Positions 3,668 to 24,397 of a stretch of DNA of 41,895 nucleotides are shown here, one piece after another. Every line of letters starts with the position of its first letter. Position 1 is the first letter of the stretch. Position numbers and translations under genes: made by a program. The DNA comes from Firmicutes bacterium HGW-Firmicutes-14 (GTDB lineage: Bacteria > Bacillota > Thermincolia > Thermincolales > UBA2595). Below the pieces are notes generated by a model, which saw nothing but the letters and a program-made list of their open reading frames with translations, made no database searches and was not told the DNA's origin. The DNA is taken from the NCBI GenBank assembly GCA_002840275.1, contig PHAB01000031.1, positions 1 to 41,895 on the forward strand, read 5' to 3'.

Positions 3668-4750
3668 ATGGGCAGCAGAATAGGAGTATTGATAACTGGA
3701 CTGGTTGTGGGAATCCTGGCCCTGGCCCTGACGGCGCTGGGCAATCCGGCAAACATGGGGGTCTGTATCGCGTGTTTTCTGAGAGATGTTGCCGGAGGGC
3801 TTGGGCTGCACCAGGTTAATACGGTGCAGTACCTTCGCCCTGAAATCCTGGGTATCATCCTCGGGGCATCCGTGATGTCCCTGGGAGCACAGGAATTCAG
3901 GCCATCCGGGGGTTCTGGCAAGGTAATGAGATTTATCCTCGGTATTATTATGATGATTGGTATGCTGGTATTTCTCGGGTGCCCCCTGCGGGTGGCCCTG
4001 AGGCTCGGGGCCGGGGACCTGAATGCCCTGGTTGGTTTTGCAGGATTATTTGCAGGTGTGGCAGTGGGGACATTCTTTTTAAAATCCGGATTCAGTCTCG
4101 GGAGGGCAGTTCCCCAGCCTAAGTGGGCCGGAGCGCTTTTCCCGCTGGCCGCTGCCGCTGCATTGCTGCTGCTCTTCTTAAGGCCGGCATTTATATATTT
4201 CAGTTTGGAAGGACCGGGTTCCATGCATGCCCCTGTACTTATTTCCCTGGCTGCGGGACTGTTGTTCGGTATTCTCTCTCAGAGGTCGCGGTTTTGTATG
4301 GCCGGGGGCATCAGGGACCTTATCCTTTTCAGGAACTTTAACCTGATTTCAGGGTTTCTGGTGATAATCCTGGTTACCTTTGCCGGCAGCCTGGCAATGG
4401 GAAAATTTAAGCTGGGTTTTGCAGCCCAGCCCATAGCCCATACAGAAGCAATATGGAATTTTCTTGGCCTGGCAGCTGCCGGCTGGGCTGCAGCCCTCCT
4501 TGGCGGATGCCCCCTGAGACAGCTGGTCCTGGCAGGACAGGGGAATACTGATGCAGCTGTCACAATCCTTGGGTTGATTACCGGAGCAGCAATTGCCCAT
4601 AACTTTGGGCTGGCGGCAAGCCCCAAAGGTGTACCGGCAGCGGGACAGGCTGCGGTGGTCGCAGGGCTTATTATTCTCCTGGCAGTTAGTGTTGCCGTGT
4701 ATTTTGGAGTGGCAGCAGCAGAGAGGAGGAAGATCCATGTCAGTGGTTGA
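3668..4750 (+). CDS. yedE: YedE-family selenium-linked membrane transporter
   Basis: A 360-residue polytopic inner-membrane protein of the YeeE/YedE (sulfur transport) family, in the branch whose genes sit beside selenium-metabolism genes and which is proposed to import a selenium compound. Conserved cysteine motifs are visible: GVCIACFLRD near residue 30, LGCPLR near 103, SRFCMAGGIRD near 208 and LGGCPLRQLVLAG near 280. The two related halves each contain a GCPLR motif, matching the internal duplication of the family. The ATG at 3668 follows a GGAAAGG RBS. It overlaps the next gene by 14 bases, so the two are translationally linked. The substrate is inferred from family context, not shown here. 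Confidence 0.88.
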   Translation: MGSRIGVLITGLVVGILALALTALGNPANMGVCIACFLRDVAGGLGLHQVNTVQYLRPEILGIILGASVMSLGAQEFRPSGGSGKVMRFILGIIMMIGMLVFLGCPLRVALRLGAGDLNALVGFAGLFAGVAVGTFFLKSGFSLGRAVPQPKWAGALFPLAAAAALLLLFLRPAFIYFSLEGPGSMHAPVLISLAAGLLFGILSQRSRFCMAGGIRDLILFRNFNLISGFLVIILVTFAGSLAMGKFKLGFAAQPIAHTEAIWNFLGLAAAGWAAALLGGCPLRQLVLAGQGNTDAAVTILGLITGAAIAHNFGLAASPKGVPAAGQAAVVAGLIILLAVSVAVYFGVAAAERRKIHVSG

Positions 4751-4946
4751 TGCGCGGGGCTTGTCATGTCCCGAACCGGTCCTGCTTACTAAGAGGACCC
4801 TGGAGAAGTCGGATGGCGCCCCGGTAAAAGTCCTGGTAGATGAAATGGCAGCCGCTGAAAACGTTGCCGCTCTGGCCGGGTCTATGGGGTGGCAGGTGAC
4901 CCGGAAGGAAACGGGAACCCATATGGAACTGGTATTGAAAAAATAG
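4737..4946 (+). CDS. TusA/SirA-family sulfur (selenium) carrier protein
   Basis: A 69-residue TusA-like protein. The motif LSCPEP places the persulfide/perselenide-carrying cysteine at residue 11, and the whole length matches the single TusA fold. In YedE-YedF type clusters these proteins are thought to carry the sulfur or selenium atom delivered by YedE. The start is the ATG at 4737, with GAGAGGAGGA just upstream, inside the end of yedE. It is shorter than the two-domain YedF protein; the DUF3343 part is supplied by the next gene as a separate protein, i.e. a split YedF-like arrangement. Confidence 0.88.
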   Translation: MSVVDARGLSCPEPVLLTKRTLEKSDGAPVKVLVDEMAAAENVAALAGSMGWQVTRKETGTHMELVLKK

Positions 4947-4960
4947 AAGGGGATATTGCC

Positions 4961-5218
4961 TTGAGCGAAATTGAAGAACGGTGTTATATAACATTTCCGG
5001 CCATAAGTAAGGTCCTGCAGGCTGAAAAATGCCTGGCGGGTTTAAAAACGGAATTCATGGTTGTCCCTATTCCCCGGGAGATAAGTGCAGACTGCGGCAT
5101 GTGTATCATGTGTTATCCGGGTAATGTTGAGACAGTGGTTAAACTTCTTGCAGAAAATAAAATTGAATATGAGAATACCCATATACTGCGAAAAAAGAAA
5201 CTGAGGTTCTTTGGATAA
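4961..5218 (+). CDS. DUF3343 protein (putative Se/S carrier partner)
   Basis: An 85-residue protein beginning with the DUF3343 hallmark CYITFPAISKVLQAEK and containing VPIPREISADCGMCI around residues 40-54, whose two cysteines are candidates for sulfur/selenium chemistry. I chose the TTG at 4961 because AAGGGG ends 8 bases upstream and because the protein then starts just before the conserved CYITF. It follows the tusA-like gene by 14 bases and is the third gene of the yedE cassette. DUF3343 proteins recur beside YedE/YedF and selenium genes; no reaction has been shown for them. Confidence 0.8.
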   Translation: MSEIEERCYITFPAISKVLQAEKCLAGLKTEFMVVPIPREISADCGMCIMCYPGNVETVVKLLAENKIEYENTHILRKKKLRFFG

Positions 5219-22319: not shown

Positions 22320-22700
22320 TTGTACGAGATATCAGCATACGGCCATTTCGATGCAGCCCATTTCCTGCGCGGTTACCGGGGGAAGTGTGCCAATATCCAC
22401 GGGCACCGCTGGAAAGTGGAAATAATCCTGCAGGGATCAGAACTTAACGAACTTGGTATCATGATAGATTTTATGGATGTAAAAAGACTCCTCAAGGAGG
22501 TTACCGGCAGGTTTGACCATAAACTGATCAATGAAGTGCTGCCTTTTGACAGGGTAAATCCCACAGCTGAAAACATGGCCAAAGAAATATTCGGGCTGAT
22601 GGAAGAAGCGCTGAAGGATTTCCTGGGCACAGGGGTGACAATAAGCAGGGTTACGGTATGGGAATCGGAGGCTGCAGCCGCAGCCTATTTCAAAAAGTGA
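22320..22700 (+). CDS. queD: 6-carboxytetrahydropterin synthase QueD
   Basis: A 126-residue enzyme of queuosine/7-deazapurine synthesis that turns dihydroneopterin triphosphate into 6-carboxytetrahydropterin. Zinc ligands His14 (HFDAAHFL), His27 and His29 (NIHGHRW) and the catalytic Cys23 are present, and PTAENMAKEI and VTVWES are typical C-terminal motifs. The TTG at 22320 follows AAAGGTGGTG. Together with queC 33 bases downstream it forms part of the preQ0 pathway; queE and queF are not in the window. Confidence 0.92.
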   Translation: MYEISAYGHFDAAHFLRGYRGKCANIHGHRWKVEIILQGSELNELGIMIDFMDVKRLLKEVTGRFDHKLINEVLPFDRVNPTAENMAKEIFGLMEEALKDFLGTGVTISRVTVWESEAAAAAYFKK

Positions 22701-22733: not shown

Positions 22734-23423
22734 ATGAAAGCCGTAGTACTTTTATCGGGAGGCCTTGATTCGACGGTCTGTATGAGTATTGCCCATAAGG
22801 CGGGATTTGAGCTTTATCCCATAAGTTTTGCGTACGGGCAGAGACACAGCCGTGAGATCAGGTGTGCCGGACAAATCGCCGGTTATTATGGAGTGAAAAG
22901 ACACCTGGTCATCACAACCAATATGGATGCTATCGGGGGCAGCGCCCTGACGGACAATATAGAAATCCCTGACGGGGATGAAACCAGGAAGGATATCCCG
23001 GTCACCTATGTCCCGGCCCGTAACTTAATTTTTCTCAGCTATGCCCTGGGATATGCAGAGGTGCTTGGCGCCGGGAAGATATTCATCGGGGTTAATGCCG
23101 TGGATTATTCAGGTTATCCGGATTGCCGGCCGGAATTCATTGAACGGTTCCAGCAGGTTGCCGATTACTCTACCAGGGCAGCTGCCCAGGATGGGAAGGA
23201 GATAGCGGTGGAAACACCCCTGATTAACCTGACTAAAGCCGGGATAATCAGGCTGGGAATAGAAAACAGGGCCCCGCTGCACCTTACCACCAGCTGTTAC
23301 CGGGGCGCTGAAAAGGCATGCGGTACCTGTGACAGCTGCCTGCTCAGGCTCCGGGGCTTCCGGGAAGCGGGGTATGAAGATCCTGTCCCATATGAAAAGG
23401 ACTGTGCCAAAGGGGGTTTATAA
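22734..23423 (+). CDS. queC: 7-cyano-7-deazaguanine synthase QueC
   Basis: A 229-residue ATP-dependent enzyme that makes preQ0 from 7-carboxy-7-deazaguanine and ammonia. The PP-loop LLSGGLDST is at residues 6-14 and the C-terminal zinc site CYRGAEKACGTCDSC gives four cysteines, as expected. NAVDYSGYPDCRPEF around residue 121 is conserved in the family. It directly abuts the next gene: the TAA at 23421 is followed at once by a GTG start, so the small redox gene is probably cotranscribed and coupled. Confidence 0.95.
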   Translation: MKAVVLLSGGLDSTVCMSIAHKAGFELYPISFAYGQRHSREIRCAGQIAGYYGVKRHLVITTNMDAIGGSALTDNIEIPDGDETRKDIPVTYVPARNLIFLSYALGYAEVLGAGKIFIGVNAVDYSGYPDCRPEFIERFQQVADYSTRAAAQDGKEIAVETPLINLTKAGIIRLGIENRAPLHLTTSCYRGAEKACGTCDSCLLRLRGFREAGYEDPVPYEKDCAKGGL

Positions 23424-23753
23424 GTGTCAGCTCAGATTGAATTGCTTGTTTTCGGGTCACGCATAATTGACAACTGCAGCCGCCGGAGTTGAGGTCCTGT
23501 TCAGTCTCAGGCTGAGACTGTGCGGGTACTTGGTGAGATACTGGAAAGGGATTTCGGGGACCGGGTCACTACCAAACATATCGATGTAGTTGATGACAAT
23601 ATGGATCAGTATCCGGAGGTGGAGGATTACCTCAGGAGAGCGGGAATGCAGCTGCCGCTGCTGGTTATTAACGGAAAGATAATCAGGCCGGGTACCGGGC
23701 TTAATTATAAGGAAATTGTGGAAGAGCTTGAAGCGATGGGCTTTAAGAAATGA
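23424..23753 (+). CDS. Candidate selenoprotein: thioredoxin-fold redox protein with in-frame TGA
   Basis: Read from the GTG at 23424, right after queC and behind AAAGGGGG, the frame encodes IELLVFGSRIIDNCSRRS, then TGA (23490-23492, codon 23), then GPVQSQAETVRVLGEIL and a complete domain ending at 23753: 109 residues if TGA is read. The layout beta-strand, Cys18, residue 23, Gly-Pro, helix, and later LPLLVINGKIIRPG is that of a small thioredoxin/glutaredoxin-like protein, and residue 23 is where a redox Cys or Sec is expected. A hairpin starts a few bases after the TGA. A conventional call would begin at the GTG at 23520, but that codon has no RBS and would discard the active site. The alternative is a nonsense mutation of a Cys codon. 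Confidence 0.7.
23499..23523 (+). promoter_or_regulatory. Candidate bacterial SECIS hairpin
   Basis: CAGTCTC (23502-23508) and GAGACTG (23514-23520) form a perfect stem with loop AGGCT, extended below a T-T mismatch by T-G and G-C pairs. The loop begins 16 bases after the TGA and has a G at its second position, within the usual bacterial SECIS limits. It lies inside the coding sequence as bacterial SECIS elements do. Confidence 0.6.
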
Positions 23754-23826: not shown

Positions 23827-23875
23827 TGTCATGAAAGTTTAGTGTTAAAACAATGACAAAGGAGTGTGGTATTTA

Positions 23876-24397
23876 ATGGCAGTGCTGAACGGTATCGACC
23901 TGGAAATCGGCCAGAAAATTATTGAGACTGTAAAAAACAATCCGGAATTCGGGAAAACCATGTGGCGTGCCCGGACATCCTGGAAGGGGGGCACCAAGTG
24001 TGAATCTGATATAAGGGGATTTAAGGTGACCATGGATGAGCCTCCTGATCTGGGTGGGACAGATACAGCCCCCAACCCGGTGGAAATGGTCCTGGCATCC
24101 CTGGGCAGCTGCCTGGTAATAGGATATACCCTGAATGCTTCTATGCTTGGAATTGAACTGCAAAAAATTGAAATAGAATTGGAAGGGGACATTGACCTCC
24201 CCGGCTTTTTCGGCCTTCCTTCAGATGTCCTGCCGGGATATACCCAGGTCAGGGCCAAGGTGTTTCTCAAGAGCACAGCAAGCTTAGAGCAATTAGAAGA
24301 GGTTCATAAACGTGTGATTTCAACATCCCCTGTGGGCCTTACCCTGAGCAAGGCTGTGAACCTTGATGTGGAACTTGTAAAGCGCAGGACTGCGTAA
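23876..24397 (+). CDS. OsmC-family protein
   Basis: A 173-residue OsmC/Ohr-type protein. DTAPNPVEMVLASLGSCLVIGYTL around residues 60-85 carries the first redox cysteine. The second, usually in a CPV context near residue 150, is replaced by Ser in STSPVGLTLSKA. A two-Cys peroxidase mechanism like that of Ohr is therefore unlikely; a one-Cys or binding role is possible. The ATG at 23876 is used with the upstream AAAGGAG; an in-frame GTG at 23864 overlaps that RBS. It has its own promoter with an operator-like dyad, which suggests stress-responsive control. Confidence 0.87.
   Translation: MAVLNGIDLEIGQKIIETVKNNPEFGKTMWRARTSWKGGTKCESDIRGFKVTMDEPPDLGGTDTAPNPVEMVLASLGSCLVIGYTLNASMLGIELQKIEIELEGDIDLPGFFGLPSDVLPGYTQVRAKVFLKSTASLEQLEEVHKRVISTSPVGLTLSKAVNLDVELVKRRTA

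Follow-up and report, generated by a model that had tools for sequence, protein, structure and literature searches.

Within the window, by which we mean the whole stretch of 41,895 nucleotides that was analysed, a frame for a protein of 109 residues lies directly downstream of queC, a gene identified by profile (TIGR00364, 209.9 bits, above the cut-off), with queD farther upstream (Table 1). The GTG start of the frame abuts the queC stop codon (23421–23423) and is preceded by AAAGGGGG; the TGA at codon 23 is the sole interruption of the frame up to its terminal TGA. The GTG start directly after queC, the ribosome binding site, and the single TGA at codon 23 had been pointed out in an initial annotation of this DNA and are confirmed by the sequence, as is its remark that a start at the GTG at 23520 would remove the active site, the loss being of codons 1–32. 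Scans for promoters and terminators did no better than scans of shuffled sequence, and no Rfam family reached its cut-off in the window.

Two further features of the window deserve mention. An OsmC-like gene downstream (23864–24397) scores 65 bits against the model of an OsmC-related (seleno)protein, NF041052, whose cut-off is 95, and carries no TGA; a second OsmC-like gene was seen by eye beside the relative L050 in genome G033. A yedE-tusA-DUF3343-like cassette, pointed out in the initial annotation, is visible as open reading frames at 3668–5218; it lies 18 kb off and is not needed for the argument on selenocysteine (Sec).

Table 1. Positions of the predicted selenoprotein gene, its parts and its upstream neighbors, and of the two host SelD genes
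Feature	Position	Strand	Basis
Predicted selenoprotein CDS, 109 residues, GTG start, stop TGA 23751–23753	23424..23753	+	Frame and homologs
Likely ribosome binding site AAAGGGGG	23409..23416	+	Read from sequence
Cys18 codon TGC, predicted partner cysteine of redox motif C-x4-U	23475..23477	+	Nearly invariant alignment column
TGA almost certainly read as selenocysteine, Sec23 (codon 23)	23490..23492	+	Frame and conservation among relatives
Predicted bSECIS hairpin	23493..23529	+	Core stem 23502–23508/23514–23520; loop 23509–23513; GG 23510–23511
Invariant Leu77-Pro78	23652..23657	+	Alignment of 20
queC, directly upstream of the selenoprotein gene	22734..23423	+	Same order in five related genomes
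queD, upstream of queC	22320..22700	+	ORF and profile
SelD genes L093, L094	C15:219296–220216, C4:9543–10460		In-frame TGA, then SECIS-like hairpin

A Covarying Hairpin Follows the TGA

The 7-bp stem (CAGTCTC/GAGACTG) encloses the loop AGGCT, which starts 16 nt past the TGA. Forty-one TGAs in the window could join open stretches (at least 18 open codons before and at least 60 after), and the one at codon 23 has the strongest downstream fold, at −20.8 kcal/mol compared with −16.9 kcal/mol for the next. Covariation was assessed in 22 distinct sequences, gap-free from the TGA, with the stem at positions 13–19/25–31; two TGA-bearing relatives that the stem does not fit, L031 and L032, were left out. 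The stem is paired in 91.6% of cells, as against 29–46% when the partner strand is slid, 21 cells are changed on both sides, and the covariation score is 0.346 compared with 0.140 ± 0.026 after shuffling. Pair 14–30 occurs as A-U, G-C, C-G, U-A, and G-U, pair 15–29 as A-U, G-C, and G-U, and pair 16–28 as U-A, A-U, and U-G.

The information comes from the four outer pairs, since the three inner ones are invariant and the stem at the same time codes for a conserved Ser-Gln-(Ala/Glu)-Glu; it was because of this coding constraint that a control by synonymous recoding was run. For 21 of the 22 sequences, 135 of 147 pairs are observed, compared with 79 ± 5 (maximum 99 in 2000) after recoding by pooled codon usage, a difference of approximately 11 SD. 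Homologs with cysteine retain three, one, two, and one of the seven pairs. Among five orthologs, pS is 0.34 in the hairpin codons 24–32 versus 0.67 downstream. The SECIS of the CxxU-type relatives L070, L082, and L083 is in the same register, and the hairpins of the host SelD genes have the same place after the TGA and carry GG at identical positions of the loop. The element has the form expected in a bacterial selenoprotein gene, a bSECIS with a G in the apical loop shortly after the UGA. Judged by its pattern of pairing, we take it to be a real bSECIS; the SECIS-like hairpin and its distance from the TGA had been put forward in the initial annotation, and covariation now supports the hairpin.

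The Host Genome Encodes the Selenocysteine Machinery

The host genome (3.65 Mb, 99.96% complete) contains all four of the genes that, according to the initial annotation, needed to be sought: tRNA-Sec (selC) on contig C36 (75.3 bits, above the cut-off), SelB on C6 (350.8 bits), SelA on C15 (639 bits), and two copies of SelD (399 and 353 bits), one adjoining selA on C15 and the other on C4. Since all are present, the host is equipped both to synthesize selenocysteine and to insert it. In each SelD gene a SECIS-like hairpin follows the one internal TGA, which makes SelD probably a selenoprotein as well.

Across the phylum, tRNA-Sec is found in 52 of the 56 genomes that bear a homolog versus 258 of 398 phylum genomes (Fisher p = 3e-7, without correction for kinship). 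It was not found in G025 (82% complete), G146, G235, and G391; the first two have SelB above the cut-off and TGA forms of the gene, and the last two have neither SelB above the cut-off nor a TGA form. Among homolog-bearing genomes, no TGA form was found in one lacking both tRNA-Sec and SelB.

The TGA Is Conserved and Has Cysteine Counterparts

The gene is single-copy in the host. Five other genomes of the family have orthologs, which share 65–74% identity, have TGA at codon 23 in every case, and, like the window gene, follow queC (a profile confirms QueC in three of these six genomes). The stretch carried by L009, on a Thermincola ferriacetica MAG contig, is the same as that of L011. A contig scan for near-exact peptides gave one relative, and a whole-genome search was used in its place, which located relatives in 56 of 398 phylum genomes with the single protein and in 74 of 398 with a profile; 74 relatives, a few of them near-duplicates, were read out.

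Two close subtypes together have TGA in 29 of 33 relatives and Cys in the other four. Subtype A (C-x4-U-G) has TGA in 20 of 21, the exception being L041, in which TGC stands in an otherwise equivalent SGG-C-GP; L021, of the same subtype, has a two-residue deletion. The CxxU/CxxC subtype has TGA in nine and Cys in three (L035, L071, and L067). A third and more distant set comprises 17 relatives with TGA elsewhere in the same loop and 24 with no TGA. Members of the GGU-x-C type (L017, L039, L051, and others) are omitted from the main counts because their Sec occupies a different column of the alignment and their hairpins are of another form.

Across 20 aligned proteins, the Sec column contains only C or U, and the in-frame UGA occurs where the homologs L041, L035, L071, and L067 carry Cys. 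The initial annotation had held that a cysteine at this position in bacteria that do not use selenium would favor Sec, and such a cysteine is found, including in homologs from genomes that have no Sec machinery. The closest relatives yielded no ortholog with Cys, the Cys forms found being limited to distant relatives (26–30% identity).

A TGA at another place in the active-site loop, such as GGU-x-C before CGP, was seen in L017, L039, L043, L044, L048, L051, L053, L057, L058, L064, L066, L073, L076, and L077. These distant, TGA-shifted relatives and their Cys-rich counterparts with no TGA may reflect migration of Sec within one fold.

The Protein Is Related to YuzD

The best Pfam match of the single protein is DUF1462 (YuzD, PF07315), at 21.3 bits (E = 3.3e-4). 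Since this is under the gathering cut-off of 25, we call the protein a remote relative of YuzD/DUF1462 and not a member by Pfam's rule; the CxxU relative L070 does pass (29 versus 25). A search of the PDB with the single protein gave no match, and a profile of 20 sequences matched 1xg8 (Staphylococcus aureus SA0798; E = 1.7e-9), aligning Sec with the second cysteine of the CASC (CxxC) motif. The AlphaFold2 model (pLDDT 82, pTM 0.73), which is least confident in the stretch of Cys18 and Sec23 (pLDDT about 61–64), has the thioredoxin-like fold of 1xg8. Among the Foldseek matches listed, 1xg8 has the best TM-score (0.67), followed by ArsD (~0.6), and thioredoxins are top by E-value. The CxxC/CxxU spacing is seen in L070, L082, and L083, and the window subtype has C-x4-U in its place. 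The invariant Leu77-Pro78 would correspond to the place of the thioredoxin cis-proline. In the alignment and in the predicted structure, one domain extends across the TGA, as first proposed, and its active-site Cys and first strand lie ahead of the TGA.

DUF1462 was assigned to the thioredoxin clan in 2010 (PMC3091736), and our literature search found no functional study of DUF1462 or YuzD. On the strength of the profile and the model, we consider the protein to be a thioredoxin-fold, remote relative of YuzD/DUF1462 with Sec at the position of YuzD's second CxxC cysteine. This kinship, the replacement of the second CxxC cysteine by Sec, and the existence of a wide Sec/Cys family go beyond the initial annotation.

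Neighbors of Related Genes

A TGA-bearing group of subtype-A paralogs is found beside trxB in G001, G005, G006, and G025 (confirmed by profile) and in G003 (by sequence), where a rhodanese-like gene intervenes between the paralog and the thioredoxin reductase gene. The paralogs that adjoin thioredoxin reductase are L103, L109, L114, L115, and L116, and a gene for an FmdB-type zinc ribbon is also near L109 (confirmed by profile), L114, and L115. By eye, L117 in G002, a distant and differently spaced relative, sits among an apparent arsR, arsenite transporter, arsD, two arsA, and an arsM-like methyltransferase, and the subtype-A gene L106 in G013 is near an apparent yedE, tusA, and a SAM methyltransferase-like gene.

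Discussion

We conclude from the sequence comparisons that the frame at 23424–23753 almost certainly encodes a selenoprotein in which the TGA at codon 23 is decoded as Sec. The initial annotation had read it in the same way, and every check that could be made by computation came out in its favor. Standard annotation would split such a gene at the TGA, and gene finders probably truncate or overlook the family.

A ribosome arriving at UGA codon 23 would, we suggest, insert Sec with the help of SelB, which would bind the downstream hairpin while carrying Sec-tRNA-Sec. The resulting C18-x4-Sec23-Gly-Pro redox site would be placed in the loop that follows the first strand of the thioredoxin/YuzD-like fold, and Sec23 and Cys18 could cycle via a selenenylsulfide that is reduced by an enzyme of the thioredoxin reductase type. 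Since TGA-bearing paralogs are found beside thioredoxin reductase, a role as a thiol/selenol-disulfide oxidoreductase seems reasonably likely. The trxB genes suggest an electron source, although they are not proof of one for the window gene, whose own neighbor is queC; the reductase partner and the substrate are guesses from the neighbors of the paralogs.

Three other explanations bear on these conclusions. An unlikely one, although it is the strongest of the three, is that the product does contain Sec and yet serves as an ArsD-type chaperone for selenium or a metal(loid), not as an oxidoreductase. The predicted model matches the ArsD structures 3kgk and 3mwh (TM about 0.6), and the surroundings of L117, in an apparent arsenic operon, and of L106 would suit such a role; against this, subtype-A paralogs adjoin thioredoxin reductase in five genomes, and the TM-score favors YuzD over ArsD. 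It is far less probable that the TGA is a true stop, closing a leader peptide of 22 residues ahead of a separate 77-residue protein that starts at GTG 23520. That GTG exists and gene finders may call it, but a single domain spans the TGA, the Cys homologs L041, L035, and L071 are continuous across the place, and a leader peptide gives no reason for the SECIS signature or for the agreement with the distribution of selC and selB. Finally, we give next to no credence to a nonsense mutation, or a misread TGC or TGT, in a Cys-type relative of YuzD, for although some relatives do carry Cys at this residue, TGA recurs at this codon in many assemblies that are independent of one another and come from many genera, the hairpin covaries, and non-synonymous differences are fewer than synonymous ones on both sides of the TGA (pN/pS 0.47 before and 0.23 after).

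A selenol oxidoreductase related to YuzD would offer the first functional lead for the uncharacterized YuzD/DUF1462 proteins, namely a redox function with thioredoxin reductase. Whether the relatives amount to a widespread, uncatalogued superfamily of YuzD-like selenoproteins in the phylum, in which Sec has shifted among CxxU, C-x4-U-G-P, and GGU-x-C before CGP, with Cys forms as well and with one branch a TrxB-coupled selenol redoxin, is to our minds an even question. With Sec and Cys naturally replacing each other and Sec found at several places of a single loop, the relatives make a clean set in which to ask why selenium is employed.

The family would stand beside about 119 catalogued families and subfamilies of prokaryotic selenoproteins, and occurs in many genera of one phylum. 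No entry for YuzD/DUF1462 or for C-x4-UGP was found in the accessible part of the May 2026 inventory of those 119 (PMC13188914), and no literature on DUF1462 or YuzD as a selenoprotein was found. With the NCBIfam selenoprotein models of June 2026, the window protein had no match at E ≤ 1 and eight relatives had none above the cut-off; the sole match among the relatives is one of the distant L039 to HUIPC, at 15.5 bits against a cut-off of 105. Identity with SaoT was rejected, there being no match to its model. Absent from NCBIfam and from what is accessible of the 2026 inventory, the family looks new.

Like the SELENOW-like, SaoT, and HUIPC proteins and Brachyspira Thioredoxin_3 Sec.1/Sec.2, the predicted protein is a small thioredoxin-fold protein whose Sec lies within the redox motif or close to it and whose gene has a bSECIS after the Sec codon. 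These known types, which are separate entries in the accessible part of the 2026 inventory (PMC13188914) and in PMC5330540, have the motifs CxxU, UxxC, UxC, or CxU. With the arsenic metallochaperone ArsD it shares the thioredoxin-like fold (TM ~0.6), but the Pfam match is weak (14.1 bits, under the family cut-off of 27) and the cysteine pattern differs. With YuzD/DUF1462 (PF07315, 1xg8) it shares the thioredoxin-like fold, a similar length, and a Cys-based motif after the first strand, and it differs in having Sec for Cys and a two-residue insert (C-x4-U). The CxxU-type relatives L070, L082, and L083 belong to the same family, with the CxxC spacing of YuzD and without the insert.
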